Shown in pieces: positions 1,963 through 32,275 of a stretch of 32,660 nucleotides of DNA. The notes under the pieces are model-generated. The model was not told where the DNA came from. It worked only from the letters and a program-made list of their open reading frames with translations, and made no database searches. The stretch comes from Acidimicrobiaceae bacterium (GTDB lineage Bacteria; Actinomycetota; Acidimicrobiia; Acidimicrobiales; Bog-793), in contig PLDN01000170.1 of the NCBI GenBank assembly GCA_003136185.1, positions 3,218 to 35,877 on the forward strand, in the 5' to 3' direction. The position numbers and the translations under genes are program-made. Within the stretch, counting starts at the first letter, position 1, and each line of letters opens with the position of its first letter.

Positions 1963-2482
1963 AATCGGCAAGGCTACGTCGTCGCTTTTCGCCGGGGGCG
2001 GGTTTGAGTCGCGCCTGGCACATCCGCCCCGTCGGCAAGCACGCCATAGTGAAGGAGGCGCCACCCAGCGGGATGGGCGACGTAGGCCCGCGTGCGTGGC
2101 TCGAAGCGCATGGCAGTGCCCGGATCCGGTAGTGGTCAATAGCTGGCGCCGCACGTTTTCCCCAAGCGTGTCAGTCAGGGGCACGGATCGGGCAAGCCTC
2201 GTGGGTTCGGTCTCCTTGACGAGCTCGTCGAGCTGACGGGATGGCACCGCGACCAGGTTCGCCGGGCACCGAGATCGGTGAGCACGGTGCGACTGTCGAC
2301 GCTGGGCTCGTCACGACTTTCCTAGCCTCAGGGCTCGTGGCTGAATGGCACGACAGAACATTTGCTTGACAGCTTGTTCTGTCTCAGCATACATTTTCAA
2401 TGTCAAATCCGGAGAAACCCCTGCTGCGCCTCATTGAGCGTTGTGTGGCGGGGCCAGAAGCCGTGAGGGAGAGCAACCAGTC
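1963..2482. other. Intergenic region between TIR-like gene and transporter operon
   Basis: No convincing gene lies here, although the TIR reading frame remains open on the minus strand as far as 2247. The right part carries the promoter and inverted repeat described separately. The perfect 12-base direct repeat GAGGGAGAGCAA begins at 2465 and again at 2499, bracketing the first start codon of the lipoprotein gene. The first copy serves as its ribosome binding site. Confidence 0.5.
2352..2395 (+). promoter_or_regulatory. Promoter with 9-bp inverted-repeat operator for the transporter unit
   Basis: A sigma70-type promoter is visible: TTGACA at 2366-2371, an 18-base spacer and TACATT at 2390-2395. 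GACAGAACA (2352-2360) and TGTTCTGTC (2375-2383) form a perfect inverted repeat around the -35 hexamer. A protein bound there would be expected to block RNA polymerase. The downstream half-site GTTCTGT stands exactly six bases before ATACA, as it does in the promoter at 9502-9530. The inferred binder is the XRE-cupin regulator encoded between the two units. Confidence 0.7.
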
Positions 2483-3412
2483 ATGTATCTCGTGTCTAGA
2501 GGGAGAGCAAGATTGCTGAAGCCGATGTCACGGAAAGGCAGGATCCCGAAAGTTGTCGGCATGCTTGCAATCGCCTGTAGTCCGCTACTTCTGGCGGCCT
2601 GCTCGAGCGCCGCTGGGTCGCCGAGCGGTAGCGGCTCAGGCAGTGGCCTCATATCGACGATCGAATCGTCGCACGTCATGACCTTCGGCGCCGCCAGCTA
2701 CGAGCCCGACAATTATCAACTGCCTAACGGCCAGTGGACGGGCACGGTAATCGCGATGGCCAATTTGCTGGCCAAGTCGTTCGGCGCCAAGGCGCAGTTC
2801 GTAAACACCTCGTGGGCGAACATGGTCGCCGGACTCCAGGCCGGAAAGTACGAGTTCGCCATCGATCTCACTGAGACGCCTGCTCGGGAGCAGGCGATCG
2901 ACTTCACCGTGCCGGTGTACACCGACCTGGACGCCCTGATGGTGGATCCTGCCAGAACCGGCATCCGCAGCTGGGCCGAGGCGACTGGCAAGGGAAAGAC
3001 CATCTGTGTCGACCAGGGCGCCTCTCCTGCCCTGACGATCACGAAGCTCCATCTGGCCGCGACCATCACTCCGCTCTCGAGCGAGGACGACTGCAACCTG
3101 GCGCTGATCGCAGGCCGCACGGATTCTCACGACAGCGGCGTCTATGCCAACGCGGGCTTCGCGGAGGCGCACCCGGGCTACAAGCTCATCTTCCCGCCGA
3201 GTCCGATCGACACTGGACCTGTTGCGTACGGTCTTCCCAAGGACACTCCGAAGAGCGCCCTCCAGACGATCAATTCACACTTGCAGAAGCTCATCAACGA
3301 AGGCGAGTGGGTGAGTATCTCAAAGCGCTACAAGGTCGTTGTGCCAACCTCGGTTGCTATCCAGCCGGTCCCCGAGTACGTATACAAGGCCGAAAACTAC
3401 GGAAAGAAGTGA
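2483..3412 (+). CDS. ABC transporter substrate-binding lipoprotein, polar amino acid type
   Basis: This is an extracytoplasmic solute-binding protein of family 3, which delivers amino acids or related small solutes to an ABC permease. From the ATG at 2483 the signal peptide has a basic start (SRKGRIPK), a hydrophobic core and the lipobox LLLAAC with Cys40, followed by a Ser/Gly-rich linker. The mature domain shows the family pattern: GxWTG near the N-terminus, then AGLQAGKYEFAIDLTETPAREQAIDFTVPVY, and near the end LPKDTPKSALQTINSHLQKLINEGEW. The start follows GAGGGAGAG at nine bases. ATG 2525 is an alternative and the frame is open from 2441. It is first in the operon, 119 bases ahead of the permease. 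The ligand cannot be deduced. Confidence 0.9.
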   Translation: MYLVSRGRARLLKPMSRKGRIPKVVGMLAIACSPLLLAACSSAAGSPSGSGSGSGLISTIESSHVMTFGAASYEPDNYQLPNGQWTGTVIAMANLLAKSFGAKAQFVNTSWANMVAGLQAGKYEFAIDLTETPAREQAIDFTVPVYTDLDALMVDPARTGIRSWAEATGKGKTICVDQGASPALTITKLHLAATITPLSSEDDCNLALIAGRTDSHDSGVYANAGFAEAHPGYKLIFPPSPIDTGPVAYGLPKDTPKSALQTINSHLQKLINEGEWVSISKRYKVVVPTSVAIQPVPEYVYKAENYGKK

Positions 3413-3531: not shown

Positions 3532-4398
3532 ATGAGCGTGAAGCGCAACGGCACTTGGATCGCATTGCTCGTGGCAGGAGGCGGTTTGCTGCTGGCCGGG
3601 TGCAACGGCGGCGCTGCCTCCTACCACTGGGACTGGGGAGTAGCAGTCAAGTTCCTGCCCTACCTCCTTCGTGGTCTCGAGCTCTCTCTAGCCATCACCG
3701 TCATCAGCGGCGCCTGCGGCGTTCTCCTCGGCGTGCCCGTTGCGGTAGGCCGAATGTCCCGTGTCTGGCCCGTACGAATGCTGACGACCGGGTACATCGA
3801 AGCCTGGCGCGGGACGCCCGTGTTGGTGCAACTCGTCTGGTTCTATTACGCTTTTCCTGTTTTGGTAGGAATCTCGATGTCGGCTGTCGTCGCCGCGACG
3901 CTCGCGCTGACCTTGAACATGTCGGCCTTTGCCGGCGAGGCGTTTCGTGCCGGCATCCAGGCCTTGTCCCGCGAGCAGTTGGAGAGCGCAGAGGTCCTCG
4001 GGCTGCGCCGCGTGCAGCGGCTCCGCTACGTCATCGTTCCACAGGCGTTCCGCAATGTCCTCCCGGTGCTGATCTCGCTTGTGGTGAGCCTCTTCAAGGA
4101 CACCTCGCTGGTGTCTACCTTGGGAATCGCCGACCTCATGTACAACGGGAACAATGCGGCGACTCTGACGTACCGGCCGCTCGAGATCCTGACGACCGTG
4201 GCGGTCATCTACTTCCTTGTGGCGTTCCCCTTCACCCTGTTAATGCGGAGACTGGAGGTGAGGCTTCGGCGGCACCTGAACCCAATCGGTGTGGCGTCCG
4301 TCGCAGCAGCACAACGTACGTCATGGCTGAGGAGGGGGAGAAGCAGCGCCTCACCTCTGCCTCCTGTTGGAGAGGAGACCTCTGTTGGCACCGAGTAG
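3532..4398 (+). CDS. Amino acid ABC transporter permease (HisM/GlnP type)
   Basis: This is a membrane permease of the polar amino acid uptake family. It has several hydrophobic segments and the cytoplasmic EAA loop at residues 136-178 (GEAFRAGIQALSREQ then QAFRNVLP), which docks on the ATPase. RGTPVLVQLVWFY (93-105) is characteristic of the family. GGAGG lies about 13 bases before the ATG. The N-terminus is odd: a short basic stretch, a hydrophobic run and LLLAGC at 19-24 read like a lipobox, which permeases do not normally have. The C-terminal 40 residues are Ser/Arg-rich and go beyond the usual end. Its 3' end overlaps the next gene, whose ribosome binding site is inside it. Only one permease is present, so the channel is probably a homodimer. 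Confidence 0.9.
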   Translation: MSVKRNGTWIALLVAGGGLLLAGCNGGAASYHWDWGVAVKFLPYLLRGLELSLAITVISGACGVLLGVPVAVGRMSRVWPVRMLTTGYIEAWRGTPVLVQLVWFYYAFPVLVGISMSAVVAATLALTLNMSAFAGEAFRAGIQALSREQLESAEVLGLRRVQRLRYVIVPQAFRNVLPVLISLVVSLFKDTSLVSTLGIADLMYNGNNAATLTYRPLEILTTVAVIYFLVAFPFTLLMRRLEVRLRRHLNPIGVASVAAAQRTSWLRRGRSSASPLPPVGEETSVGTE

Positions 4399-5752
4399 CA
4401 GGAGCTTGCAACTCGCCGAGGCGGTGTACGACATCACTTGGAGCGATTTGCCGGAGAGAGTTCAACGGCTTGCGCTGCGAGCCTACAAGGACATAGTCGG
4501 CGTAACAGTTGGCGGCTCCGCGGTCCGGTCATCGCGAATCGCTGCGATGGTAGGCGTTCGTCCTCCCAGTGGCGCAGCTGCGCAGAGGCGCCCTTTCATC
4601 CCAGCTGCTATGCCTGCCTTCGCCTACGGCATCGCGGCAAGCAGCCTCGACTACGACGACGGCCACAATCTCGCCGGCATCCATCCGGGCGCCGTCGTGG
4701 TGTCGGCGCTGCTGGCAGCAGTCGAGTCCGGGATACAGCTAGAGCTTGAAGCGTTCCTGACTGCGCAAGTGCTTGGCTACGAGCTGGCCCTACGTGCGGG
4801 CAGGATTCTCTTCGTCCGGGGGACTGAGGAGACGCACTGCTCGGGAACAGCGGGTGCGATCGGAGCTGCAGCGGCTGTTGGCAAGGTGCTCGGGCTCGGG
4901 AAGTCGCAGCTTGTAGCCGCGATGGAAATCGCATGGGCACACGCGCCAGTTGCTTCGCTGCAGCTGTCGCAGGTGAAGGAGTCAGTCGGGTGGGGCGCGC
5001 ATACGGGCTTCGTCTCGGCGTGCCTCGCCGAAGCTGGATTCGGCGGCCAACGAGGGCTGCCGGGCTTCCCGTCGGCGACTCCGTTCGACTGGGACCGAGC
5101 AGAGAACTTGTGGAGCTCGTGTCCGTTCGGAGAGCACTTCGAGATCGACACGTTGTACTTCAAGCCCTACGCCTGCTGCCGGTACATCCATTCGGCCATT
5201 GATGCTCTCGATGAACAGATGCGTCAGGGAGGTCTGAGCGAAGATGAGATTGGAGCGCTTCGGGTCTTCGTGCCTTCGTGTGCTGCAAGCCTGACAGAAC
5301 AGCAGCCGCGGTCTCTTGAAGAGGCGCAATACAGCTTTCCGTTCGCCCTCGCCTGTCATGCCGTGCAGGGAGGAGTCACGCACCACGAACTTAGTGAGCG
5401 TCACCTTCGAGACGAGCAGATACTGGACTTCGCGTCCCGAGTGCACGTAGAGCAGGACAAGGAGATGGACCAGCTTTTTCCGTCGCACCGCCCGGCGCGC
5501 CTTGAGATCGAAGATCGGTACGGAAACATCTCGAGCGCCATCTGGACGTCGGCCACCGGCGATCCATCGCGTCCTATGAGCACCGAGATGCTCGACAAGA
5601 AGTTCGACCAACTCGTGAAGCCTCTGCTAGACGACTCGGGATGGCGCAGGCTGAAGGAGGACGTGACCACGTTTGGGTCGCCCGATACCGTGTCCGGCGC
5701 AGTGAAGCGACTTGCGTCGCTCCGCGATGCCCTCATGATGGAAGGGGATTAG
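4385..5752 (+). CDS. MmgE/PrpD family protein
   Basis: It belongs to the MmgE/PrpD family, which includes 2-methylcitrate dehydratase, cis-aconitate decarboxylase and less defined lyases or isomerases. Family features seen are the helical start (LQLAEAVYDITWSDLPERVQRLALRAYKDIVGV), the ALDYDDGH-like SLDYDDGHNLAGIHPGA, the ELALRAGR segment, FKPYACCRYIHSAIDA and the late KFDQLVKPLL. The TTG at 4385 is preferred because GGAGAGGAG at 4370-4378 stands six bases ahead. It overlaps the permease by 14 bases, implying translational coupling. Two bases separate its stop from the ATPase start. Placement inside an importer operon suggests it acts on the imported solute or an early product. Family membership is secure; the reaction is unknown. 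Confidence 0.88.
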   Translation: MAPSSRSLQLAEAVYDITWSDLPERVQRLALRAYKDIVGVTVGGSAVRSSRIAAMVGVRPPSGAAAQRRPFIPAAMPAFAYGIAASSLDYDDGHNLAGIHPGAVVVSALLAAVESGIQLELEAFLTAQVLGYELALRAGRILFVRGTEETHCSGTAGAIGAAAAVGKVLGLGKSQLVAAMEIAWAHAPVASLQLSQVKESVGWGAHTGFVSACLAEAGFGGQRGLPGFPSATPFDWDRAENLWSSCPFGEHFEIDTLYFKPYACCRYIHSAIDALDEQMRQGGLSEDEIGALRVFVPSCAASLTEQQPRSLEEAQYSFPFALACHAVQGGVTHHELSERHLRDEQILDFASRVHVEQDKEMDQLFPSHRPARLEIEDRYGNISSAIWTSATGDPSRPMSTEMLDKKFDQLVKPLLDDSGWRRLKEDVTTFGSPDTVSGAVKRLASLRDALMMEGD

Positions 5753-5754
5753 CC

Positions 5755-6549
5755 ATGTTGGGCGAAAAGGACAGACTTCCCGTGGTAGGTCACTCGCCAG
5801 TATCGATGGTGGCATCAGGAATCAGGAAGAAGTACGGCAACACTGAAGTGCTGCGCGGCGTCAGCGTGACCGTCGAGTCAGGACACACGACGGCGATCAT
5901 CGGAGCGAGCGGGTCAGGCAAGAGCACTTTGCTGCGGGTCATGATCGGGCTCGAGAGCGCCGAAGACGGAGAGATTCGTCTCGACGAAGCTCCCTTGATG
6001 TCCTATGTGCACGGCAAGGTCAAGCGTGCTCCGGACTTTCACAGCGAGCGTCGCAAGATAGGCATGGTGTTTCAGCACTTCACGCTCTTCCCGCAGCTGA
6101 CGGTCCTGCAGAACGTCATGCTCGCCCCACGGAAAGTCCTGTCGCTCTCGAAGGCAGCGGCTGAAGCTCGTGCGCGGGTCGTTCTGGACCGCGTCGGTCT
6201 CTTGGAGAAGGCCGCCGCGTATCCGGGACATCTGTCCGGCGGTCAGCAGCAACGCGCCGCGATAGCGCGCGAGCTGGCAATGGATCGACGTGTCCTGCTC
6301 TTCGATGAAGTCACTTCTGCTCTTGACCCAGAGCTTGTCCGCGAAGTGCTGGCGACAATGCGAGAGTTGGCCGCGGACGGCATGACGATGGTCGTCGTCA
6401 CCCATGAGATGGGCTTTGCGAGACACGTTGCCCAACAGGTCGTCTACATGCATGACGGGGAGGTCGTCGAGACCGGCACTCCGGAACAGATCTTCGGCGG
6501 AGATGCGCAGGAACGTACCAAGCGGTTCATCAGTCACAGCCTCAGTTGA
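5755..6549 (+). CDS. Amino acid ABC transporter ATP-binding protein (GlnQ/HisP type)
   Basis: This is the ATPase of the importer encoded just upstream. All hallmarks are in place: Walker A GASGSGKS at 50-57, Q-loop VFQHFTLFPQLTVLQN, the ABC signature LSGGQQQR at 160-167, Walker B VLLFDE at 180-185, the D-loop SALDPE and the switch His217 in VVVTHEMGF. GGAAGGGG precedes the ATG. Length (264 residues) is slightly above the usual 240-250 because of an N-terminal extension and a charged insert near residues 83-100 (HGKVKRAPDFHSERR), which is also common in HisP-like members. The nucleotide-binding domain would pair with the EAA loop of the permease encoded at 3532-4398. Confidence 0.94.
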   Translation: MLGEKDRLPVVGHSPVSMVASGIRKKYGNTEVLRGVSVTVESGHTTAIIGASGSGKSTLLRVMIGLESAEDGEIRLDEAPLMSYVHGKVKRAPDFHSERRKIGMVFQHFTLFPQLTVLQNVMLAPRKVLSLSKAAAEARARVVLDRVGLLEKAAAYPGHLSGGQQQRAAIARELAMDRRVLLFDEVTSALDPELVREVLATMRELAADGMTMVVVTHEMGFARHVAQQVVYMHDGEVVETGTPEQIFGGDAQERTKRFISHSLS

Positions 6550-6577: not shown

Positions 6578-8566
6578 ATGATAGATAGCGCGCTGACGAC
6601 GTCGCGGTTCCCGCGGTTGTTCGAGCCACTCGAGTTCCGCGGTCGCACAGCACCGAACCGGATCATCTGTCCGGGCCACACCACTGGCTACACGCGGGAC
6701 AGCACTTTCCCGCCGAAGCTGCTGCAGTACTACGAAGCACGAGCCGCCGGCGGAGCCGGGATCATCGTGACGCAACCGTGCTACGTGACTCCCGAATACG
6801 GCGCGGTCAAAGCGGACGACGATGCGATCGTCGAGGAGTTCCAGCGGCTGGCGAAGGTCATCCAACCGCACGGCAGCCTTGTCTTGGCACAGTTGTCCCA
6901 TCCTGGAGGTCAGGGTGTCTATACGGGCGGTTACTCCGCCAGCTACTTGGCACCGTCAGCGGTCCCGGTGCGGAAGTTCGGCGTGGAGTGGCGAGTTCCC
7001 CGAGAGATGACGACTCGCGACATCGAGCAAGTGGTCGAGCAATTTTCCCGGTCTGCAGCACGGTCCATCGCGGGGCAACTGGATGGCGTCGAACTTCACT
7101 TCGCTCACGGGAATCTCATCGACCAGTTCTTGAGCCCGGTCACGAACCAACGCGACGACAGTTGGGGCGGTGATCTTGATTCGCGGCTCCGCTTGCCGCT
7201 TCTCATCATCGATGCGGTGCGGCAAGCTATCGGAGAGCACTGCGTGCTCGGAGTACGACTCACGGGATTCGACTTCGACGGTTCAGAGAGAAACCGCGCT
7301 CTCAGGCTGGACTCCGACAGGCTTCAGATCGCAGGCACGATCGCTGAGACAGAACTTGTGGACTACCTCTCGCTCTCGGTGGGCCACTACTCCGACGCCT
7401 TGGCGACGGCACGGAACATCCCTGACATGTCGTACCCGCCCGCCGCCTGGGCTGCACAACTAGCGGATGTCGCTCGCGCCATCGACATCCCCGTAGCAGT
7501 CGTTGGAAGGATCAATCACCCAACCGTCGCTGAGCGCCTTTTGGCTGACGGCGCGTGCCAGTTGGTCGCGATGGCACGAGCGCTGATCGCCGACCCATAC
7601 CTGCCGTTAAAGGCGCGAACTGGACGCGTGGAGGAGATCCGGCCGTGCGTGGGTGCCGTCGAGGGCTGCTGGGGCAATGTCTACCGTGGTCGGCCCATGC
7701 GCTGCGTGTACAACCCGACGGTCGGACGAGAGGACACATGGTCCGAGGAGCATCTGGGCCTCAGCCCGACGCCACACAGCGTGCTTGTCGTCGGTGCCGG
7801 TCCGGCCGGTCTCGAGTGTGCCCGCGTTGCCGCGCTGCGTGGACACTCCGTTCGTCTCGTCGAGCGTGAAGACGTCGTCGGAGGACAGCTCAGGTTGGCA
7901 TCGCGCGCCCCGCACCGAAGCGAGCTCGCCACAGTCGTCGATTGGCTGTTGGAATCGTGTCTGCGTGCAGGCGTCGAAGTCAGTTGCGCAGTTGATGTGG
8001 ACGCGATGTACCTCTCCTCTGTATCGGCGGACACCGTGGTCCTCGCGACGGGCGCTCTGCCTGACGTCGGCCGCGTCATCGGACGCGAGCATGCGGCGGT
8101 CGGATGGGACCTCTTAGCCGGCCGTGTTCCTGCGACCATGTTAGGGGAGCGAGTACTCGTCTATGACGAGGAGAGCTCACGCGAGGGCCTCTCCGTCGTC
8201 GAGTGGCTGGCAGAGAGGCGCATCGGTGTTACCTGGGTAACACCGATGCAGGCCGTCGGCTCGAGCCTCGACCCCTTTGGCTTGGCTCCGGCTCTCGAGC
8301 GTTTGCAAGGCTGCGCGGTCAACGTTCTGCCACTTCAGGAGCTCGTCCGCGTCGAGGACGAGCACACCGCGATCCTGTCGTCGAGAGTCAATGGAGACGA
8401 GACCGTTCACAAGAACGACTCGATCATCCTCGTGCCGCTACGGAAGGCAAATGAGGCGCCGGCAGCTTCGACTCGCATACCGCCAACGCGTATTGGTGAT
8501 CTTGTCGCTCCTCGTAACCTTGAGATGGCTACTGTCGACGGCTTCGCGGCAGCCATGCGTCTCTGA
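6578..8566 (+). CDS. Two-domain OYE/2,4-dienoyl-CoA-reductase-like FMN oxidoreductase with altered iron-sulfur motif
   Basis: Residues 1-350 form an Old Yellow Enzyme barrel (FRGRTAPNRIICPGHT, HFAHGNLIDQFLSPVTNQR, then MARALIADP). Residues about 390-660 form a Rossmann flavin/NAD(P) module starting VLVVGAGPAGLECARVAALRG. The family includes FadH, trimethylamine dehydrogenase and histamine dehydrogenase, which bind FMN, FAD or ADP and one 4Fe-4S cluster through C-x2-C-x3-C-x11-C. Here the motif reads Cys357, Ala360, Cys364, Cys376: the spacing is exact but the second ligand is alanine. A possible role is reducing an enoyl or dienoyl intermediate or oxidising an amine. A perfect 14-bp inverted repeat lies within codons at 8220-8249. 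GGAGAGCAGG precedes the ATG. It ends the first unit and converges on the regulator. Confidence 0.88.
   Translation: MIDSALTTSRFPRLFEPLEFRGRTAPNRIICPGHTTGYTRDSTFPPKLLQYYEARAAGGAGIIVTQPCYVTPEYGAVKADDDAIVEEFQRLAKVIQPHGSLVLAQLSHPGGQGVYTGGYSASYLAPSAVPVRKFGVEWRVPREMTTRDIEQVVEQFSRSAARSIAGQLDGVELHFAHGNLIDQFLSPVTNQRDDSWGGDLDSRLRLPLLIIDAVRQAIGEHCVLGVRLTGFDFDGSERNRALRLDSDRLQIAGTIAETELVDYLSLSVGHYSDALATARNIPDMSYPPAAWAAQLADVARAIDIPVAVVGRINHPTVAERLLADGACQLVAMARALIADPYLPLKARTGRVEEIRPCVGAVEGCWGNVYRGRPMRCVYNPTVGREDTWSEEHLGLSPTPHSVLVVGAGPAGLECARVAALRGHSVRLVEREDVVGGQLRLASRAPHRSELATVVDWLLESCLRAGVEVSCAVDVDAMYLSSVSADTVVLATGALPDVGRVIGREHAAVGWDLLAGRVPATMLGERVLVYDEESSREGLSVVEWLAERRIGVTWVTPMQAVGSSLDPFGLAPALERLQGCAVNVLPLQELVRVEDEHTAILSSRVNGDETVHKNDSIILVPLRKANEAPAASTRIPPTRIGDLVAPRNLEMATVDGFAAAMRL
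8220..8249. repeat. Perfect 14-bp inverted repeat with 2-base centre, inside a coding region
   Basis: GCATCGGTGTTACC at 8220-8233 is followed by TG and then its exact reverse complement at 8236-8249. It lies in the NAD(P)-module codons of the flavoprotein gene, encoding RIGVTWVTPMQ. The arms do not extend further. It could be an operator, a cruciform or mRNA hairpin, or chance. It is not followed by a T-run, so it is not an ordinary terminator. Confidence 0.85.
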
Positions 8567-8593: not shown

Positions 8594-9250
8594 TCAATGA
8601 CGTAGCGTCGCCCAGATTGCCCGAGTTGGCTTGGGACTGTCATTCCAGAACCGATGGGGCAAGCCAGAGTCAAATGCTATGGAGTCTCCGGTCTTGAGGG
8701 CGAATTCTTCGAATACGATCTGGATGCGGAGGATACCCTCAAGCACCACCCCGTACTCTCGCCCAGGGTGCCGGATGAGAGCACCGTCTTCTGCAGAGGC
8801 AGAACTCGGTGCGTAAATGTACTCGCAGAAGTCGAAGCCGTCCTCGGGAGCCGGAAGGAGCAGCTCAGCGGTCACGCCGGATCGCATGTAGATACGGCGG
8901 CGCTCTTCGCGTCCGATTAACAAGCGAGTACGAGGCGGGGTCTCGGTGGCGTGCTGACCATCTTCCAGTGGAACATCGGGACCAAACACGGCCTCCATTG
9001 ACAGCTCGAGATGGGTGACGATCGCGATGAGAAGACTCACCGAAGGTTCTACGAGTCCGCGCTCGACTTGGGAGACGTGTCCAGGTGAGCAACCGAGCCT
9101 CCTCGCGAGTTCCCGCACGCTCCATCCGCGCGCCTCGCGGGTCGACCGTAGCCGACTCCCGAGGGCAGCCATGGTGATGGGGGCGGGGGCGGGGGCCTCG
9201 GTTCGCGGCACTGCTGCTGGCTTCTTATTGACCCGTGAGCCGCTGGACAC
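8594..9250 (-). CDS. XRE-family transcriptional regulator with C-terminal cupin domain
   Basis: The helix-turn-helix (LGSRLRSTREARGWSVRELARRLGCSPGHVSQVERG) is followed by a cupin barrel (GREYGVVLEGILRIQI, then LKTGDSIAFDSGLPHRFWND), the layout of the PuuR/SutR-like regulators that sense a small metabolite. It is transcribed opposite the two catabolic units and lies between them. It is therefore the likely controller of the matched promoters at 2352-2395 and 9502-9530. The start is uncertain: GTG 9250 gives a proline/alanine-rich leader before the HTH, ATG 9172 starts directly at it, and the frame is open to 9472. Neither start has a clear ribosome binding site. Whether it represses or activates cannot be read here. 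Confidence 0.87.
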   Translation of the reverse strand: MSSGSRVNKKPAAVPRTEAPAPAPITMAALGSRLRSTREARGWSVRELARRLGCSPGHVSQVERGLVEPSVSLLIAIVTHLELSMEAVFGPDVPLEDGQHATETPPRTRLLIGREERRRIYMRSGVTAELLLPAPEDGFDFCEYIYAPSSASAEDGALIRHPGREYGVVLEGILRIQIVFEEFALKTGDSIAFDSGLPHRFWNDSPKPTRAIWATLRH

Positions 9251-9629
9251 CTGCTCAAGGTTAACAGGTCCGACCCGTTCATAGGGCGCCGCATGGCCGT
9301 CATTGTTCAAGTTCTCTGCCTCCCCAGAAAGGCATTGGCACCGGAGAAGAAGAGGCGGCTCAGGGTCGATCAGCCAACCAACTGGCCGGTGCCCTAGGCG
9401 TGGTCGAACTGGCGGCATGTCGGCGCCTTGAGGAATAGCGGTTCGGTGAGACTCTGCGCGGGTGGCGAGCACCGCGAGGGAGCTGAAGAGTTTGCTCTTA
9501 CTTGACAGGCGTTCTGTACGAAAATACAGTTGTCGCCAAGCGAATGATGGGTTGAGAAGGTTGTCCGGAGCGACGCCGAAGCGGCGGTCGACTTATTCGT
9601 GCCCATATTTAGGTGCGGAAGGAGCATCG
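9251..9629. other. Divergent intergenic region between regulator and second catabolic unit
   Basis: It holds the plus-strand promoter at 9502-9530 and the ribosome binding site GGAAGGAG at 9617-9624. Frames stay open on both strands toward the flanking genes. Plus-strand codons upstream of 9530 precede the promoter and cannot belong to a transcript made from it. Confidence 0.5.
9502..9530 (+). promoter_or_regulatory. Promoter with operator-like repeat for the second catabolic unit
   Basis: TTGACA at 9502-9507, a 17-base spacer and TACAGT at 9525-9530 make a good sigma70-type promoter. CTGTA-n6-TACAG is an inverted repeat reaching into the -10 element. The run TTGACAG, GTTCTGT and, six bases on, ATACA matches the promoter at 2366-2394 almost base for base, apart from one base less between the first two blocks. 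The 5' leader to the GTG at 9630 would be about 95 bases. Confidence 0.7.
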
Positions 9630-10529
9630 GTGTCCACGGGAGAGCTGTCAACTGCGGCTTCGCCAGGAACGAGCCAAGAGAGATACCGCCACATCTCTCT
9701 CACCAGGCCTGTAGAGGGCGTCGCCCTCATGACGTTCAAGCGGCCCGAGGTGCGTAACGCCCTCAGTGGTCAGGAGATGATCTTGGAGATCGCCGCGGCG
9801 GTAGCGTTCTGTGACAGCTCCCACACCGCGGCCCTCGTGATCACCGGCGAAGGCAAATCTTTCAGCGCCGGTGGAGATGTGAAGCACATGGTGTCTAGGA
9901 CAGGACTCTTCCAAGATGCAGACACGCTGGAGATCATCGAGCGATATCGCCACGGCATCCAACACCTACAAACGACGCTTCAGCACGTCGATCTCGTCAC
10001 CGTCGCTGCGGTGAACGGCGCCGCCGTAGGAGCCGGAATGGACCTCGCGCTTGCCTGCGATCTTGTCTATTGCTCCGCCCGGGCGGTCTTTTCCGCCCCC
10101 TTTATCACATTGGGGCTGGTTGCCGGCGACGGCGGCATCCCGCTCCTGATCCGATCTCTCGGTCGTCAGCGATCAGCAGAGTTGTTGTTTGCCGGCAAGA
10201 GACTGACAGCCGCGGAGGCCCGCGATGCGGGGCTGGTCGCCGAGGTGCTGAGCGACGGCAAGCTCTTGGATCGAGCGCTAGAAGTAGCCGGCGCGATCGG
10301 GATGCGCCCGCGACAGGCTACGCGATTGACCAAGCGGCTGCTGCGACTTGCGTCGGCGGAGACGGGTCCAGTGCTGTCTGAGTTGAGCGCTGCCTATCAG
10401 GCAATCTTGCAGAACGGGCTGGAGCACCAGGAGGCCGTGCGAGCTCTCGGCTCTGCCAGCCGTCCGGCTGCGGATCGCGAGCCATCGAGCACGATGCGGG
10501 CAGCGGCCGACCGAGGTGCTGTCCTTTGA
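9630..10529 (+). CDS. Enoyl-CoA hydratase/isomerase family protein
   Basis: This is a crotonase-fold enzyme acting on an acyl-CoA. The oxyanion-hole segments are FSAGGDVKHM and NGAAVGAGMDLALACDL. The hydratase Glu164 equivalent appears to be kept (RSAELLFAGKRL), but the Glu144 position is Phe in SAPFITLGLVAGDGG. An isomerase or other crotonase chemistry is therefore as likely as plain hydration. GTG 9630 is chosen because GGAAGGAG ends six bases before it and the promoter lies at 9502-9530. The frame is open further upstream. The TGA overlaps the TTG start of the next gene by four bases. It opens an eight-gene unit that also holds a CoA ligase and an acyl-CoA dehydrogenase. Confidence 0.88.
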   Translation: MSTGELSTAASPGTSQERYRHISLTRPVEGVALMTFKRPEVRNALSGQEMILEIAAAVAFCDSSHTAALVITGEGKSFSAGGDVKHMVSRTGLFQDADTLEIIERYRHGIQHLQTTLQHVDLVTVAAVNGAAVGAGMDLALACDLVYCSARAVFSAPFITLGLVAGDGGIPLLIRSLGRQRSAELLFAGKRLTAAEARDAGLVAEVLSDGKLLDRALEVAGAIGMRPRQATRLTKRLLRLASAETGPVLSELSAAYQAILQNGLEHQEAVRALGSASRPAADREPSSTMRAAADRGAVL

Positions 10530-11431
10530 ACGCCCTTCTGGTCGGCGCCGTCGACACCCATGTGCACTCGTCACCCGACGTGGTCCCGCGACGCCTGGAC
10601 GACCGCGGCGTGACGGCAATGGCGGCTGACGCGGGTCTGCGTGCGATCGTCCTGAAGAACCACCATGGCTGCACCGCAGCTCGGGCGACGTTGGCGCAGG
10701 TGGTCTGCGACAACGTGAGGGTCCTTGGCGGCTTGGTGCTCAACAACTCCGCCTGCGGCGGGTTCAATGCCGACGCGGTGCGGGTCTCTCTCAAGCTAGG
10801 CGGCAAGGTCGTCTGGATGCCGACCGTGTCTGCGGCCAACCACATCGAGTACATGCGCCAGCATCCAGATGACCGACATGTCGTCTCCCTCGGACACGGT
10901 CTCCAGTCCGAAGGGCTGACTCCTCTGCGTAACAAAGACACCTTAGGCGACGACGTGCTCGAGATACTCGACCTCATCGCCGAGGCGGATGCCGTGCTGG
11001 CCACTGGACACCTGTCGGCCCTCGAGTCGTGCGTCATGGTGACACAAGCATTTCGCCGGGGAGTTAGCAGGGTCTTGATCACGCATCCCGAGGCGCCCCA
11101 GATAGCGATGCCGAGGGAGATCCAGTGCGATCTCGCTGGGCAGGGGGCCATGCTCGAGCGCTGCTACTACTCGTTGCGCGCTGGCTATCCGGCCGAAGAA
11201 ATGCTGTCAGAAGCACGAGCATGCGGCATCGAATCGACCGTCTTCGCGACGGATCTCGGGCAAGTTCACAATCCGCTTCCGACTGACGGGTTGCTCGCTT
11301 TCCATAACGAGCTCGCTAGCCGCGGGCTGACCGAGGACGAGTGGTGGCGAGCCTCAGCGTTCAATCCGAGCGAACTGCTCGGTCTCGAGAAGGAGAGCAC
11401 GATCCTCCGGGCACGAGACGCCATCTCATGA
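10526..11431 (+). CDS. DUF6282-type amidohydrolase-like metal-dependent hydrolase
   Basis: The N-terminus has the metal-binding motif DTHVHSSPD, as in amidohydrolase-superfamily barrels. Later come LKNHHG, ATGHLSALES, LITHPEAPQ and a conserved acidic ATDLGQ, in the order expected for the histidines and aspartate of a TIM-barrel hydrolase. I recognise it as DUF6282-like; the reaction of that family is not established to my knowledge. The TTG start overlaps the previous stop (TTGA), and its own stop overlaps the next start (ATGA), so translation is coupled across three genes. In context it might open a ring or split an amide or ester during breakdown of the imported compound. Confidence 0.82.
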   Translation: MNALLVGAVDTHVHSSPDVVPRRLDDRGVTAMAADAGLRAIVLKNHHGCTAARATLAQVVCDNVRVLGGLVLNNSACGGFNADAVRVSLKLGGKVVWMPTVSAANHIEYMRQHPDDRHVVSLGHGLQSEGLTPLRNKDTLGDDVLEILDLIAEADAVLATGHLSALESCVMVTQAFRRGVSRVLITHPEAPQIAMPREIQCDLAGQGAMLERCYYSLRAGYPAEEMLSEARACGIESTVFATDLGQVHNPLPTDGLLAFHNELASRGLTEDEWWRASAFNPSELLGLEKESTILRARDAIS

Positions 11432-19308: not shown

Positions 19309-20614
19309 TGAAGGGCACCAGAACCCCGATCAGACCCTTGAGCTGGACCGCCGCGCCCGCCACAGGCCATCATCGGCTGTGTTTTTCTCCCTCCTCTACC
19401 TCGGACTCTGCCGGCTCTTCGGACTGATTCGGTCATCTCGACGATCCGTGTCGGACAAGGACGTCGAGCTCATGGTGCTCCGTCACGAGGTCCGCATCCT
19501 GGAACGTCAGCTGCACGGGTGCCTTCGCTACCGACCGGCAGATCGGGCGATCCTCGCGGCGCTCAGCCGGTTGCTCCCGCGAGCACGTTGGCGGTCGTTC
19601 CTCGTCACGCCCGAGACCTTGCTCCCTTGGCACCGCGAAGCAGCCAACATCAAGTGGCGCAGATGGGGCCGCCAACGTGGTCCTGGCAGACCGCCCTTGA
19701 GCGACGATCTTGTCGACCTCGTCGTCCGTCTCGGCCGGGAGAACCGCTCCTGGGGGTGCGTGCGCATCCAGGAGAGCTTCGAAAGCTCGGCGTGTGCCTG
19801 TCGGCGAGCTCGATCCGCCGTGTGCTTGGCCGCCACGGGCTCGGTCCGGTTCCACGACGAACGCCTACTTGGTCGGAGTTCCTCCGCACGCAGGCGAAGA
19901 GCGTGCTCGCGACGGACTTCTTCACCGTCGGCACCGTGAGGTTGACAAGGCTCTATGTGCTCTTCGTCGTCGAGCTCTCGACGCGCGAGGTGCACATCCT
20001 CGGGATCAGCGAGCATCCCACCGGGGCCTTCGTCACCCAACTGGCGCGCAACCTCGTCGCCGAACTGTCCGACCGCCGTCGGTCCGTCAGGTTCCTCGTC
20101 CGCGACCGGGACACCAAGTTCACTGCCAGCTTCGACGAGGTGCTTTCCTCTGAAGCCATCCGCGTGATCAAGACGCCGGTCCGCTCCCCTCGGGCAAACG
20201 CCTACGCGGAGAGATTTCTAAGGACGGCGCGGACCGAGTGCCTCGACCACATCCTCATCCTGGGCGAGCGCCATCTCGAGGGGGTGCTTCACAACGAGCA
20301 ACGGCCTCATCTAGGCATCGATCTCGGCGTGCCCGCCGGCTCGGCCGAACCCTCAGTACCGATCCTTGACGTCCAGCGCCAGGACGTGCTCGGCGGCCTC
20401 ATCCACGAGTACTACCCGGCGGCTGCGTGATCGATCGGTCTCGCGGACACCAGTCGTCCGCCCTGGCGCGCATGGCCGCAGTCTTGAACTTGTCAAGGCG
20501 GGGTCCTGCTCCCTGATCGCTTCGAGCAGATGAGCCGATCACTGCTCCTCTTCGCCGCCGGCAGCGACGATCAACTGACCGCGCACGGCGCGATCGACAT
20601 TCTGGTGCCCTTCA
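19309..20614 (+). mobile_element. Decayed insertion sequence with 15-bp terminal inverted repeats
   Basis: TGAAGGGCACCAGAA at 19309-19323 recurs as its exact reverse complement at 20600-20614, and CGATC lies a few bases inside both ends. Between them is one DDE transposase reading frame, broken as described in its own entry. Total length about 1.3 kb fits an IS481/IS3-like element. No target-site duplication is evident, which agrees with an old or rearranged insertion. Confidence 0.8.
19379..20430 (+). pseudogene. Frameshifted DDE (rve-type) transposase, IS481/IS3-like
   Basis: The first part, in the frame of the GTG at 19379, carries ELMVLRHEVRILERQL and RPADRAILAALSRLLPRARW, the N-terminal region of a common actinobacterial integrase-core transposase. 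Near 19770 the frame must change. Inserting one base after ATCCAG restores GELRKLGVCLSASSIRRVLGRHGLG, so a single-base deletion has occurred there, with no slippery heptamer. The rest encodes the DDE core: Asp in ATDFFTVG, Asp in LVRDRDTKF and Glu in NAYAERFLRTARTECLDH. Further on, HLEGVLHNEQRPHLG lacks several residues expected between VL and the NEQRPH motif (usually REYVAHY-like), indicating a second lesion. It is almost certainly inactive. Confidence 0.85.
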
Positions 20615-20697: not shown

Positions 20698-21609
20698 TCA
20701 CGGCGCGGCTGGCGGCAGGGAATGGGCGGCGAGTTCCATGAGCCCATTCACGGCTTCTGACGACAGCACGGCTCGTCTGTTCTCGATGTCCCGCACAAGG
20801 CGGCGACCGCCGGAGATGACACGCACGCCGTCGATCTCGAACCTGTGCCGCGGGAGCTCGGCGCCGAGAACGCACATCACCGGCTTCACGTCGGGCGATT
20901 CCCCAACTAACGGACCGGACAAGGACTGAGACACCCGCTCGGCTTCCCACCGTGTCACCGCCAACGTCTTGGTGAGGGGATGACGGCCGTGCCAAAGCGT
21001 CCCCTTCGACAAGGTCAGCTTGCCCGAGTAGTTCTTAGCGTCCACAGCGAAGACGCCCGTGGGCCCGATCACGAGGTGGTCGACGTTCGCCTGTGATCCC
21101 GGCACAAGCCTGTCGTGGAGGACGCGGAAGCCGTGCTGTTCAAGCTTCTGGAGCCGCCGGCCGAGCCTCTCCTCGCCCTCGGCTCCCTTGCGCCATGCCC
21201 CGGTCTCCTCGCGTGGGCCCCAGAATGCCCTTGCGAGGGCGATTGCGACGAAGCATGCGACCAAGAGCGCGAGCACGTTGGCCTCGTGCCCGCCGACCGG
21301 CGCCCTCGAGACGACCTGCGTCGCAGCGGACGTCCGCAACCCGAAGCCGTGTTCGAACCAGTGGTTGAAAGCCGTAACAGCGAAACGGGCTGCCAGGTAC
21401 ACACCGACCGGGCCGACGACGGCAAGCGGGAGGGTCCAGTGCAAATAGCGACGGATGTTCTGCCTGTCCTGTTCGCGCCTGCGCCGGTACTCACTTCGTG
21501 CGGAGCGACCTGCGTCGTTGGCTCCGGGCGGCCTTTCCCCCAAGGCAGGTCCACGACGAGGTGCCAAAATGACACCCGGGCGCGGGTCATCGTCTCTCGG
21601 TCCGCTCAT
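20698..21609 (-). CDS. NERD-domain membrane protein (nuclease-related)
   Basis: An N-terminal basic region (SARSEYRRRREQDRQ) is followed by two predicted membrane segments at about 57-77 and 111-130, then a NERD domain at about 138-245. Its core has GAEGEERLGRRL, NVDHLVIGPTGVFAVDAKNYSG with Asp177, Asp190 and Lys192 in a PD-(D/E)xK-like arrangement, and a C-terminal cysteine-poor tail. NERD domains are related to restriction-type nucleases, but most proteins carrying them have no known function. ATG 21609 follows AGGGGG at seven bases. An upstream in-frame ATG at 21717 overlaps the stop of the small gene before it (TGATG), so a 36-residue longer coupled product is possible. It lies between an insertion sequence and an integrase remnant. 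Confidence 0.83.
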   Translation of the reverse strand: MSGPRDDDPRPGVILAPRRGPALGERPPGANDAGRSARSEYRRRREQDRQNIRRYLHWTLPLAVVGPVGVYLAARFAVTAFNHWFEHGFGLRTSAATQVVSRAPVGGHEANVLALLVACFVAIALARAFWGPREETGAWRKGAEGEERLGRRLQKLEQHGFRVLHDRLVPGSQANVDHLVIGPTGVFAVDAKNYSGKLTLSKGTLWHGRHPLTKTLAVTRWEAERVSQSLSGPLVGESPDVKPVMCVLGAELPRHRFEIDGVRVISGGRRLVRDIENRRAVLSSEAVNGLMELAAHSLPPAAP

Positions 21610-21716
21610 GTGTCTGCCCCCTAGTCCAACTCTGTTATCGACGGGATGGCTCTGCAGCTTGAGGAGGCGGGCGCGTGCCACTTGGTTGCATCGCTGCAGA
21701 TCTAGCTTCCGGGCCA

Positions 21717-21878
21717 TCACCGGGAAGCCGTGCCTTGCCAGCGGGAGACGATGAGAGCGACGAGCGTATCGAGATCTACCCCAAGGTGTCGGGCGTCTTC
21801 CTCGAGGCTTCGAAGGAGGACGTCAGGCACACGTAAGGTCACTTCAGTCCATGAAGCACATCCGTCCGGGTTCGCCAT
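21717..21878 (-). CDS. Small ribbon-helix-helix-like protein
   Basis: This encodes 53 residues: MANPDGCASWTEV, then a strand and two helices (TLRVPDVLLRSLEEDARHLGVDLDTLVALIVSRW). The pattern, a short beta strand followed by helix-turn-helix spacing, resembles ribbon-helix-helix DNA-binding proteins or antitoxins such as the CopG/Arc group. It overlaps the 3' end of the integrase remnant in another frame. Its ATG lies in a 13-base tandem duplication (ATGGCGAACCCGG twice), so the start may be a by-product of that duplication. It may regulate the NERD gene directly downstream. Confidence is moderate because the protein is short. Confidence 0.5.
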   Translation of the reverse strand: MANPDGCASWTEVTLRVPDVLLRSLEEDARHLGVDLDTLVALIVSRWQGTASR

Positions 21879-26501: not shown

Positions 26502-27587
26502 GTGGCTACCTTCGACTGGGACGCATGCGACTGGTCCGAGGCTGGCAGGACCGTCGTCCTGGTGGGCGCCGGGGGCTCCGCGGACCTTGGTCTTCCCGTA
26601 GCCGATGAGCTTCACAACCAACTTGTTGAGCGGTTGCCTCCGTTATACGCGAACCTTGCTCGGCTCGTCTTCGCCGACGGGGCACCGGTTGACGTCGAGC
26701 GACTGTTTCGAGTTATCCAGTTCCTCCACGCGTTGGAGACAAAGGAGCGACCCCTCGATCAGCGTCTCTCCCACGATGGCCTCGACATCGCCTTGCTTGT
26801 CGCAGGCTGGGAGCAAAGTGTCGGGGAGTACCTGGCCGCCCAGCGCAACTCCGTGCAGGGGTCCGCGACGGGGCGCCTCATCGACTCACTGTGGGACGCG
26901 CTCTTCGAGATTCTCTGGCTCAATGCCGGCCAGCCCCCGGACATTGGTTATCTCAGATGGCTCCTCAAATCGATGCAAGGCGGAACCATCGTTACCCTCA
27001 ACTATGACAACGGTCTGGAGGTCGCTGCGATCCAACCAGCAGCGCAGCCGGTCGACGCCGACCCGTATCCCAGACCCGCAACAGCAGTTCCGGGCTTTCC
27101 TGATCCGGCCCACCGCGTGCGGATTATCAAACTGCACGGTTCTCTGAACTGGAGTACCGACCCGGTAACGGGCACCACGACCGTTCTTTCGGACAACGAC
27201 CTCCGGAACAGACGATGGGCAAGCCAGATCACTCCAAGCCGCCCTGCACCGGGGATCATCTTCGGCGCGGGAAACAAGCTCCGGCCAGACGGGCCTTACC
27301 TCGACATGTACGTTGAGTTCAAGAAGGCGCTCGCGACGGCGGATCGATTCGTCGTGATCGGCTATGGCTGGGGCGACGCGCACGTAAACGAACTGATTCG
27401 CCGATGGCTACAGCATCGCGGGGTGGCTCGAGAGTTCCGTGTAGCTCGCGTCGACGGGCCAGAACTCCCGAGTCTTCCGCGCAGCTGGGTGACAGGGAAC
27501 GATTCGGTAGACGTGAGCGTCTTCCGGGGCCGCGCAATAGACACGATCGTCGAAGTGACCCGACCAAGCCCGACCCTGCAGCGATGA
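26502..27587 (+). CDS. SIR2-family domain protein
   Basis: A SIR2-like NAD-binding fold spans most of the protein: VVLVGAGGSADLGLP (18-32), TLNYDNGLE with Asn167 (165-173), IKLHGSLNW with His212 (209-217), and VVIGYGWGDAHVNELI (284-299). This subgroup is common in anti-phage systems, where it hydrolyses NAD+ to stop infected cells; catalysis here is inferred from the retained Asn and His. No separate sensor domain is obvious, so recognition may come from a partner. The GTG lacks a ribosome binding site but has TACGAT seven bases upstream, as expected for a leaderless promoter. It ends the plus-strand series and converges on a small minus-strand gene 21 bases away. Confidence 0.82.
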   Translation: MATFDWDACDWSEAGRTVVLVGAGGSADLGLPVADELHNQLVERLPPLYANLARLVFADGAPVDVERLFRVIQFLHALETKERPLDQRLSHDGLDIALLVAGWEQSVGEYLAAQRNSVQGSATGRLIDSLWDALFEILWLNAGQPPDIGYLRWLLKSMQGGTIVTLNYDNGLEVAAIQPAAQPVDADPYPRPATAVPGFPDPAHRVRIIKLHGSLNWSTDPVTGTTTVLSDNDLRNRRWASQITPSRPAPGIIFGAGNKLRPDGPYLDMYVEFKKALATADRFVVIGYGWGDAHVNELIRRWLQHRGVAREFRVARVDGPELPSLPRSWVTGNDSVDVSVFRGRAIDTIVEVTRPSPTLQR

Positions 27588-28204: not shown

Positions 28205-29179
28205 CTACGCCTCGTAACCATTCGGAAGCCCCCGTGCGAGGTCAATGAACTTGATCGGCTGTCGCTGCTTTTGTGCGACGAAGACGGGGGCCCACATGTT
28301 GGCCGGAACACCCGGCGCGAAGAGTCCGGTGGGAAGCACCCAGCCCATTAGCGACATCACGAAAGCGGTACTCGGGCCTTCGGCGTAGCGCGGCTCAACC
28401 CCGATAAGCAGGGTGGTTGCCGACCCTGTTACGTCGCTCGGATCGGCTTCGTACTTCGCCAGCAACGCTTGCGCCTTGTCCATCGTCTCGCTTGTATCGA
28501 AGCTCCTGGTTGCCGCCCCTTCGCCATCAGGGTCGGCTTGAGGAGGCCTTCTGACTGAAGTTGGCCACTCTCTCGGAGCATCCAGCACCTCACGCAGCCA
28601 GGTCGCCAGTGTCGTCTCTACGAAGGAGTCGCCCTGAAGGTAGGTGAGCACACAGAGGGCCGTCTTCGCGACGAGACGGCGAAGATCTGCCATGTGGACT
28701 GACACGAACACGTTCAGCCAATCGGGTTCCGAGTCCGGCGACCCAATCTGTTCGCTCAACACTTCAAGCGGCGGGCCGTACTTTTCATCGAGTCCAGCCC
28801 TAATCCGCGCCACTTCTTCAGGGCTGCCAAACACCTTGAAGGTCTTCCCACCGTCAGCGTCCGTGCTCACGACTTCGACGGAGGCGCGCGCCGTATGCTC
28901 CCCGGTCGCGAGGTCAACCATGAAGTCACCGAGTGGATGCGTGGCTTTGAGCAGTCCGTGCGGTAGTCCGGACCCTTGCAGGAACAGGGTGAACGGCGAC
29001 TCTGGCCCAAACAGTTTGCCTTCGACCCCGGAACCGATGCCACTATTGCAGTCCTTGCAAGCAACGATCGTGCCTTGACCACCGAAGGCATCGGGGAAGA
29101 TGTGATCTCGTGTCGCGCCACCCCCTTCGATGGGAGGCCGCGCACAGTGCGGACACAGGATGTTGTTTGTCACGACCAT
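28205..29179 (-). CDS. HNH endonuclease family protein
   Basis: The N-terminal 50 residues are a zinc-bound HNH module: Cys9-x2-Cys12, RDHIFP at 24-29 giving the catalytic His26, and Cys41-x2-Cys44-Asn45 (CKDCN). The remaining 270 residues have no recognised domain. They include VFVSVHMADLRRLVAKTALCVLTYLQG and a C-terminal strand-rich part. HNH enzymes with long unassigned tails are common in restriction and other anti-phage systems, and the tail may receive a signal. It starts 52 bases after the nucleotide cyclase gene on the same strand, so the cyclase product is a possible activator. No classical cyclic-nucleotide-binding motif is visible. Confidence 0.82.
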   Translation of the reverse strand: MVVTNNILCPHCARPPIEGGGATRDHIFPDAFGGQGTIVACKDCNSGIGSGVEGKLFGPESPFTLFLQGSGLPHGLLKATHPLGDFMVDLATGEHTARASVEVVSTDADGGKTFKVFGSPEEVARIRAGLDEKYGPPLEVLSEQIGSPDSEPDWLNVFVSVHMADLRRLVAKTALCVLTYLQGDSFVETTLATWLREVLDAPREWPTSVRRPPQADPDGEGAATRSFDTSETMDKAQALLAKYEADPSDVTGSATTLLIGVEPRYAEGPSTAFVMSLMGWVLPTGLFAPGVPANMWAPVFVAQKQRQPIKFIDLARGLPNGYEA

Positions 29180-29231: not shown

Positions 29232-30290
29232 TCATCGCTTCTTCGCACGCACGAAGGGCCTGAAGGTGATGTAGTTCTTGGTTCTGATGCCGAGGAACCA
29301 AGACTCATTCTTGTCCGGCACGCTGGCAGTCAGTCGCTTGATCTCGTCGAACGAGATCACCACGACCGTACCCTGGGGGTGACGTTCCAGTCTCCCGCGC
29401 GTTTCATACCAGCGGTGCTTTTTTGAGACCTTGCCCGCGCTGTCAACGAATGGGTACTCGATCCAGACTCGCCCCACTTCGTCGGACTGCGGCGGGCGGG
29501 GTAGGTAGAACGCATGACCGGAAGTGGAGCGGACCTCCTCCACCGACATCATGTGGGACTCACCCCAATCGTCGTCCTCTTCGGTCGGCACCCTGTCCGC
29601 TGGCCGAATCTTCACTTGCGCCGTCACTTGGATCGGAATGGGGACGCGCTCTGCTATTCCACGTATGCACACTTCGTCGTCACTTAGCACCAACGCGAGC
29701 TCGTCGTCGATGAGGTCGGCTGCGTGGGTATCTGCGAACACGACCCCGAGCGGCCTGGCCTTGTCCATGGCTCTTGCCGCCAGGTTCAGACAACGACCGG
29801 TGTAGTCGAGAATCGCACCATCCTTCGCTATCAGGCACGTTGCGGGACCCCGAGCGACTCCGATCCCCAGCGCCGTGGGCAAGTCTCGTATCGTCACCAT
29901 CACGTCATCGGCTGCGATGCTGTTGAACTCGTAGACGAGCTTGATCGCGCGCTTTAGAACAGAAGCGAGGGTGCTACGCAGGGCCTGTTCACTGTCGGGA
30001 TGCTCATAAACGACGAGAAGCCCGTCGCCGGTGAGCTTGAAGAATGTGGCGTCATGGAAATAGCGATCAAGTATCCCGGTCACCGCAGCTCTGAGGTACT
30101 TAGCGATTGCAAGGGACTCGTTCCGTTCGGAGAAGCTGGAGAATCCTCGGATATCCGCAAAGAGGGCGACTACCTCGCAGCTCCGTCCACCCGCCGAGCG
30201 AAGTGAGCTCCTTAGCTGTCCATGGAGATGCGACAGGGAGTCCTGCAGGCCTGTTGTCGCCGGATCGGCTGGCTCGTCGGTCTCGCCCAT
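29232..30290 (-). CDS. Class III nucleotide cyclase with unknown C-terminal domain
   Basis: Residues about 38-210 form a class III adenylate/guanylate cyclase domain: VALFADIRGFSSFSE with metal ligand Asp46, FFKLTGDGLLVVYE with Lys85 and metal ligand Asp89, and LDYTGRCLNLAARAM with Asp162, Asn169 and Arg173. Asp162 to Asn169 to Arg173 keeps the family's seven- and four-residue spacing. Lys plus Asp at the base-contact positions is the adenine-type pair, so cAMP is the default expectation. Residues 220-352 (WIEYPFVDSAGKVSKKHRWYETRG and beyond) are unrecognised. No membrane segment is present, so it is cytosolic. It starts three bases after the XRE regulator gene and precedes an HNH nuclease gene, so a signalling role in defence is plausible. 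Confidence 0.85.
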   Translation of the reverse strand: MGETDEPADPATTGLQDSLSHLHGQLRSSLRSAGGRSCEVVALFADIRGFSSFSERNESLAIAKYLRAAVTGILDRYFHDATFFKLTGDGLLVVYEHPDSEQALRSTLASVLKRAIKLVYEFNSIAADDVMVTIRDLPTALGIGVARGPATCLIAKDGAILDYTGRCLNLAARAMDKARPLGVVFADTHAADLIDDELALVLSDDEVCIRGIAERVPIPIQVTAQVKIRPADRVPTEEDDDWGESHMMSVEEVRSTSGHAFYLPRPPQSDEVGRVWIEYPFVDSAGKVSKKHRWYETRGRLERHPQGTVVVISFDEIKRLTASVPDKNESWFLGIRTKNYITFRPFVRAKKR

Positions 30291-32211: not shown

Positions 32212-32213
32212 AA

Positions 32214-32235
32214 CCGATAGTCTGACTACTATCGG
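32214..32235. promoter_or_regulatory. Inverted-repeat operator between transposase and passenger gene
   Basis: CCGATAGT (32214-32221), six bases, then ACTATCGG (32228-32235) is a perfect 8-bp inverted repeat. It sits three bases from the transposase start codon. Its position suggests repression of transposase expression, perhaps by one of the element's own proteins. Confidence 0.6.
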
Positions 32236-32275
32236 ATACAACTTGGTGGATCCCCTCCCGCGGGAGACTTGCGAC

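Follow-up and report, generated by a model that had tools for sequence, protein, structure and literature searches.

An iron-sulfur flavoenzyme of the OYE type with alanine at the second cluster ligand, a replacement that recurs among its relatives

A 662-residue Fe-S flavoenzyme of the OYE/TMADH/FadH type, encoded in an Acidimicrobiaceae genome, has alanine (Ala360) in the place of the second cysteine ligand of its cluster motif. The same cysteine is missing, with the other three retained, from related proteins of several bacterial phyla, so that Ala360 looks like a genuine variant within the enzyme family rather than an error. We give a probability of about 60% to the reading of the protein as a TMADH/HADH-like Fe-S flavin dehydrogenase using a three-cysteine cluster as its electron relay, in which cysteine 2 has been replaced repeatedly. 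Within the window, that is, the whole analysed stretch of 32,660 nucleotides, the enzyme and its relevant sites are located as follows.

6578-8566, + strand: OYE/TMADH/FadH-type Fe-S flavoenzyme, 662 aa (ORF, Pfam, NCBIfam and predicted model).
7646-7705, + strand: Fe-S ligand motif C357-x2-A360-x3-C364-x11-C376 (sequence and alignment).
7655-7657, + strand: codon GCC of Ala360, in the column of the second ligand, FadH Cys338; two base changes from a Cys codon.
8153-8227, + strand: residues 526-550 (VLVYDEESSREGLSVVEWLAERRIG), where FadH has its NAD(P)H glycine motif, with a YDE-type sequence here (alignment).

The part of the translation that contains the motif is EIRPCVGAVEGCWGNVYRGRPMRCVYNP, and its letters are C357-V-G-A360-V-E-G-C364-x11-C376, with the codons of Cys357, Cys364 and Cys376 at 7646-7648, 7667-7669 and 7703-7705. 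In the tree alignment, C357, A360, C364 and C376 fall in the columns of C335, C338, C342 and C354 of E. coli FadH, so that the four cysteine ligands of a [4Fe-4S] cluster are reduced here to three, with Ala360 at ligand 2. The residues, spacing and interval named in the original prediction agree with both the ORF and the FadH alignment. Cys1, Cys3 and Cys4 are retained in all 183 rows of an enlarged alignment, which includes 32 rows from motif-scan loci preselected for these three cysteines, and likewise in all of the 119 rows sampled by whole-protein similarity; each of the eight other cysteines of the window protein occurs in 1-16% of the 183 rows. As judged from these alignments, the conservation of the three retained cysteines exceeds chance, and with ligand positions assigned by homology, a three-cysteine cluster would be the natural reading of the motif.

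The protein consists of a TIM barrel (Oxidored_FMN, residues 14-351), the Fe-S linker, a dinucleotide-binding domain from about residue 401 (Pfam) and a third alpha/beta domain that lacks the FadH NAD(P)H glycine motif. Its predicted model is confident (pLDDT 91.3) and matches NCR, TMADH, DCR, histamine dehydrogenase and HisD along the whole chain, with query-normalised TM values of 0.87-0.90 for the best chains and Z of 49.6-53.1. Thus, the architecture of Fe-S OYEs, a TIM barrel and Fe-S linker followed by two alpha/beta domains, is present from end to end, which bears out the proposed assignment to OYE-type enzymes with an Fe-S motif. E. coli FadH shares the domain order, the fold, three of the four Fe-S cysteines in register and the C-x2-C-x3-C-x11-C spacing; the window protein differs from it in having Ala360 for Cys338, Asn179/Tyr271 for the Tyr/His dyad and no NAD(P)H glycine motif. 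TMADH and histamine dehydrogenase (2tmd, 6de6, 3k30) resemble it by their full-length fold (Z 49.6-52.8), 6de6 also by a YDD-like third domain, and an HxxH of the window protein lies at what we take to be the position of TMADH Y169/H172. Unlike the window protein, the TMADH chains and 6de6 have the spacing C-x2-C-x2-C with every cysteine present; indeed, the second cysteine is found in all of the solved full-length enzymes NCR, DCR, TMADH, Rhizobium histamine dehydrogenase and HisD. The best NCBIfam match, TIGR03997 (mycofactocin-system FadH/OYE oxidoreductase 2), covers nearly the whole length with 492.8 bits against a curated cut-off of 793.15, so that the protein is a relative and not a member of mycofact_OYE_2; four TIGR03997 members above the cut-off (L049-L052) have all four cysteines, unlike the window protein.

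The flavoenzyme gene belongs to a run of genes on the same strand and has a regulator gene on the opposite strand downstream of it.

2441-3412, + strand: family-3 solute-binding protein of an ABC transporter, in the same gene run ahead of the flavoenzyme.
3532-4398, + strand: ABC transporter permease (BPD_transp_1).
4367-5752, + strand: MmgE/PrpD family protein.
5641-6549, + strand: ABC transporter ATPase, directly upstream of the flavoenzyme.
8594-9472, - strand: helix-turn-helix-cupin regulator, downstream of the flavoenzyme.

Further neighbours encode an enoyl-CoA hydratase, an acyl-CoA ligase, an aminotransferase, a DAO-family FAD oxidoreductase and an acyl-CoA dehydrogenase, and the neighbouring genes would fit a catabolic cluster, inside which a DUF6282 protein is also encoded (10526-11431, + strand). 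Elsewhere in the window, a protein of 655 aa (280-2247, - strand) carries a CAP12/Pycsar TIR effector domain and strongly matches the PADLOC candidate PDC-S35. A gene with a weak adenylate/guanylate-cyclase domain and weak PADLOC Pycsar-cyclase hits (29232-30290, - strand) lies 27 kb from it and adjoins genes for an HNH_5 protein (28205-29179) and a DDE transposase (30859-32241). A SIR2_2 protein (26502-27584, + strand) matches the PADLOC SIR2 and Aga_SIR2 models, and its region also harbors a NERD protein (20698-21720) and an integrase-like frame (19519-20427).

That Ala360 stems from a mistake in sequencing or assembly, or from decay of the gene, is very improbable. Such an account could point to a genome broken into 193 contigs and to the long terminal branch of the window protein (1.01), but the 662-aa frame is unbroken, GCC is not a single-base neighbour of a Cys codon, and the same Ala occurs in a paralogue on another contig and in many other genomes. 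In eight Ala-type relatives whose codons were checked, alanine is encoded by GCA, GCC, GCG or GCT, and from none of the nine codons, that of the window protein included, can a Cys codon be reached in fewer than two base changes. The paralogue, a second full-length Fe-S OYE of the same genome with C-x2-A-x2-C, is 42% identical, and no closer full-length relative turned up. Searches of 35 family, 397 order, 395 class and 396 phylum genomes, drawn as samples from larger groups and each searched with a separate E limit, gave no full-length homologue above that identity; in the class and phylum samples the paralogue alone appeared at E up to 1e-110, and in the family and order samples, with laxer limits, full-length matches reached up to 40%. 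A close-homologue scan of genome contigs with the window protein confirmed no relative. A local match of 47.5% over 181 residues (L056, in genome G718) likewise has Ala at ligand 2, so that the check proposed with the original prediction, whether Ala is conserved in the nearest homologues, came out in favor of Ala in both. A homologue in the same gene context with the cysteine present, named there as the finding that would speak for a local mutation or sequence error, does not occur among these nearest homologues; a distant one from Lichenicola (L077, 32% identity) keeps Cys2 (CVACEQAC) and is encoded directly behind amino-acid ABC transporter genes. As L077 has Cys2 despite similar neighbours, context alone does not track Ala.

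The frequency of the replacement was estimated in a sample drawn independently of the motif, by searching 256 phylum genomes with a Rokubacterial MAG protein (L099) at E up to 1e-50 and scoring up to four candidates per genome. Of 124 listed matches 119 were read, and five were left out: the window itself, a contig-end fragment from the same genome, an N-terminal piece ending before the motif and two short frames (335-342 aa). All four cysteines are present in 104 of the 119 relatives, and Cys2 is missing from 15, which include the window's own paralogue and have Ala (8), Gly (2), Ser (2), Thr (1), Met (1) or Val (1) instead; the query L099 itself has Ala with the other three cysteines and may enrich its own pattern, yet the 104 four-cysteine proteins were recovered with it as well. 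None of the 119 lacks Cys1, Cys3 or Cys4, and the 15 Cys2-less proteins, 33-45% identical to L099, keep these three without exception, meaning that replacement in the sample is restricted to ligand 2. Among 11 plasmid relatives of an Agrobacterium Ala-type protein, chosen from a spread list of 40, Ala is found in six and Cys in five, and the other three cysteines in all 11. A motif scan of genome contigs returned at least 119 stretches, and 118 of these encode a flavoenzyme with C-V-G-A among the matches listed (84 from Pseudomonadota, 28 Actinomycetota, 3 Bacillota, 1 Rokubacteria, 1 Acidobacteriota and 1 unassigned); since the scan presupposed the other cysteines, it bears on breadth alone. 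In two Ala-type loci, L334 (4001-6019) and L335 (1-2004), the C3-C4 loop has 6 and 7 residues instead of 11 with both cysteines kept, and this shortening might mean an altered metal site.

Furthermore, the replacement is scattered on trees. The more careful one, calculated without the motif columns, has 64 rows (32 motif-scan loci, 27 motif-independent rows and five from plasmid protein searches), and a second, quick tree was made from the 119-protein sample with the window protein, FadH and HpbA, thinned to 65 rows of which 14 are Cys2-less. By parsimony, which does not separate losses from regains, each of the two needs seven changes between Cys2 and its absence, a count made unsure by several long branches, with at least two forced by starred, well-supported branches in the 64-row tree and at least three in the 65-row tree; the 27 motif-independent rows by themselves need four. 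A single clade for all 41 Cys2-less rows of the 64-row tree is rejected (p-AU 0.00028). Judged from these trees, replacement of Cys2 had more than one origin, or was partly reversed by regain. The window protein pairs with its own paralogue with support of 100/99 in the 64-row tree and 99 in the 65-row tree, and HpbA belongs to another starred clade than this pair.

HpbA of Paracoccus aminovorans, annotated as N-methyl-L-proline N-demethylase, is a named Cys2-less relative. Its motif is CVGANYC, as is that of its homologue on S. meliloti pSymB. The N-methylproline demethylase gene stcD is located on pSymB according to PMC12239276, and we infer that the S. meliloti locus is stcD. HpbA and StcD share with the window protein an alanine as ligand 2 beside three retained cysteines, and HpbA also has amino-compound ABC transporter genes nearby, of the betaine/proline type in its case; hpbA stands close to betaine ABC-transporter and pyrroline-5-carboxylate-reductase-like genes. 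It differs in its C-x2-A-x2-C spacing, in an identity of 29-30% to the window protein and in forming a separate supported clade. Alanine is thus the wild type in a family whose catalytic role is assigned by annotation. The original prediction of a lost second cysteine therefore stands as a replacement of ligand 2 but not as a private loss, since many relatives, the paralogue in the same genome and the annotated HpbA share the substitution.

The same exchange is deleterious in FadH. Its Cys338Ala mutant was drastically reduced in activity in vitro in earlier work cited in PMC12691678, and none of the four Cys-to-Ala mutants complements in vivo according to the same source, indicating that three cysteines are insufficient in the FadH scaffold. 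As Ala is natural in the Cys338 column of the relatives, a change that kills FadH is the wild type of a widespread set. The FadH catalytic dyad is Tyr166/His252 (PMC12691678); if these numbers are taken as one lower than a count from Met1, its columns hold Asn179 and Tyr271 in the window protein. In the third domain, VLVYDEESSREG is found in place of the FadH glycine motif. Most of the widespread Cys2-less set likewise lacks this motif. It is absent from 52 of 56 scored Cys2-less rows vs 38 of 103 Cys2 rows (Fisher p ~9e-13 with kinship ignored; 24 too-short rows were left out and motif-scan loci are included), and in the 119-protein sample, with 95 scored, from 13 of 15 vs 23 of 80. Tested on phylogenetically independent pairs, of which two starred ones were usable, the association is not significant, and the motif is also missing from many enzymes with Cys2. 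L252 and L258, with the glycine motif present and Gly at ligand 2 (CIRGNEGC), are genuine exceptions and the clearest counterexamples to a dehydrogenase-only reading; two other apparent cases, L089 and L131, look like chance regular-expression hits. From the glycine-motif and dyad comparisons, an oxidative, TMADH-like role of the window enzyme is proposed with moderate confidence.

Two other accounts of the metal site have to be weighed. An ordinary [4Fe-4S] cluster might be completed by a His, Asp, Glu, Asn or Ser from elsewhere in the protein with function unchanged, which we consider unlikely. Some columns do differ between the groups, and His34 is found in 46 of 56 Cys2-less vs 36 of 127 Cys2 rows, next to an alignment column that presumably holds TMADH Cys30; His34 is, however, also present in most Cys2 rows without the glycine motif, so that it does not mark the absence of Cys2 as such. 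In the 25 columns that best separate the two groups, there is no polar residue universal in Cys2-less and absent from Cys2 rows, nor any compensating conserved polar residue specific to the Ala group, and no compensating cysteine is common in the alignment columns of that group (at most 25%). Or the cluster may be gone, with FMN, perhaps with FAD, working alone and the three cysteines being structural or binding another metal. Failure of FadH C338A in vivo (PMC12691678) makes a broken site a plausible start of such decay, but all 15 Cys2-less proteins of the sample retain the other three cysteines and the remaining cysteines of the window protein are hardly conserved. Because of this full retention, complete cluster loss is the less likely course, and we rate it a little lower still than a replacement ligand.

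Under the preferred reading of a dehydrogenase with a three-cysteine relay, a substrate would be oxidised at FMN within the TIM barrel and electrons would exit singly via a cluster on Cys357, Cys364 and Cys376. In this superfamily the cluster links FMN with a second site; in NCR its distance is 6 A from FMN and 9 A from FAD, and in TMADH and histamine dehydrogenases, where ADP is bound instead, electrons of the cluster go to ETF (PMC6502838). With Ala at ligand 2, the cluster would be either a native [3Fe-4S] or a [4Fe-4S] whose unique iron has water or another non-cysteine ligand; we rank the [3Fe-4S] form first and, only slightly below it, a [4Fe-4S] whose fourth site is open or has another ligand. 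A native [3Fe-4S] centre serving FMN is described for glutamate synthase (PMC8097209). Probably, NADPH-driven reductases such as FadH require the fourth cysteine, and enzymes oxidising toward another, presumably ETF-like acceptor may tolerate or even favour its loss; we propose that the same cysteine was replaced again and again for this reason. A more far-reaching version, which we offer tentatively and at somewhat less than even odds, would see a class of Fe-S OYE dehydrogenases that is widespread, has evolved repeatedly and works with a native cluster on three cysteines, so that the substitution which kills NADPH-dependent FadH is adaptive in it. The cluster, tuned for oxidative turnover, would then be either a [3Fe-4S] relay whose potential is shifted or a [4Fe-4S] next to FMN whose fourth site is open to exchange.

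The general picture of Fe-S OYEs, which act in bile-acid, bilirubin, fatty-acid, aromatic and betaine metabolism, is that of enzymes with a [4Fe-4S] cluster on four cysteines. A report of a natural Fe-S OYE without Cys2 did not turn up in the open-access literature searched, which is weak evidence of absence. The three-cysteine variant can be tested with one EPR sample and one point mutation. If a sizeable share of the family uses a three-cysteine cluster, the cofactor and potential assumed for those enzymes would be wrong. The Cys-to-Ala change that abolishes FadH function is the wild type in HpbA-like enzymes, and the family would, if the reading is true, be a natural experiment on the role of the fourth ligand.
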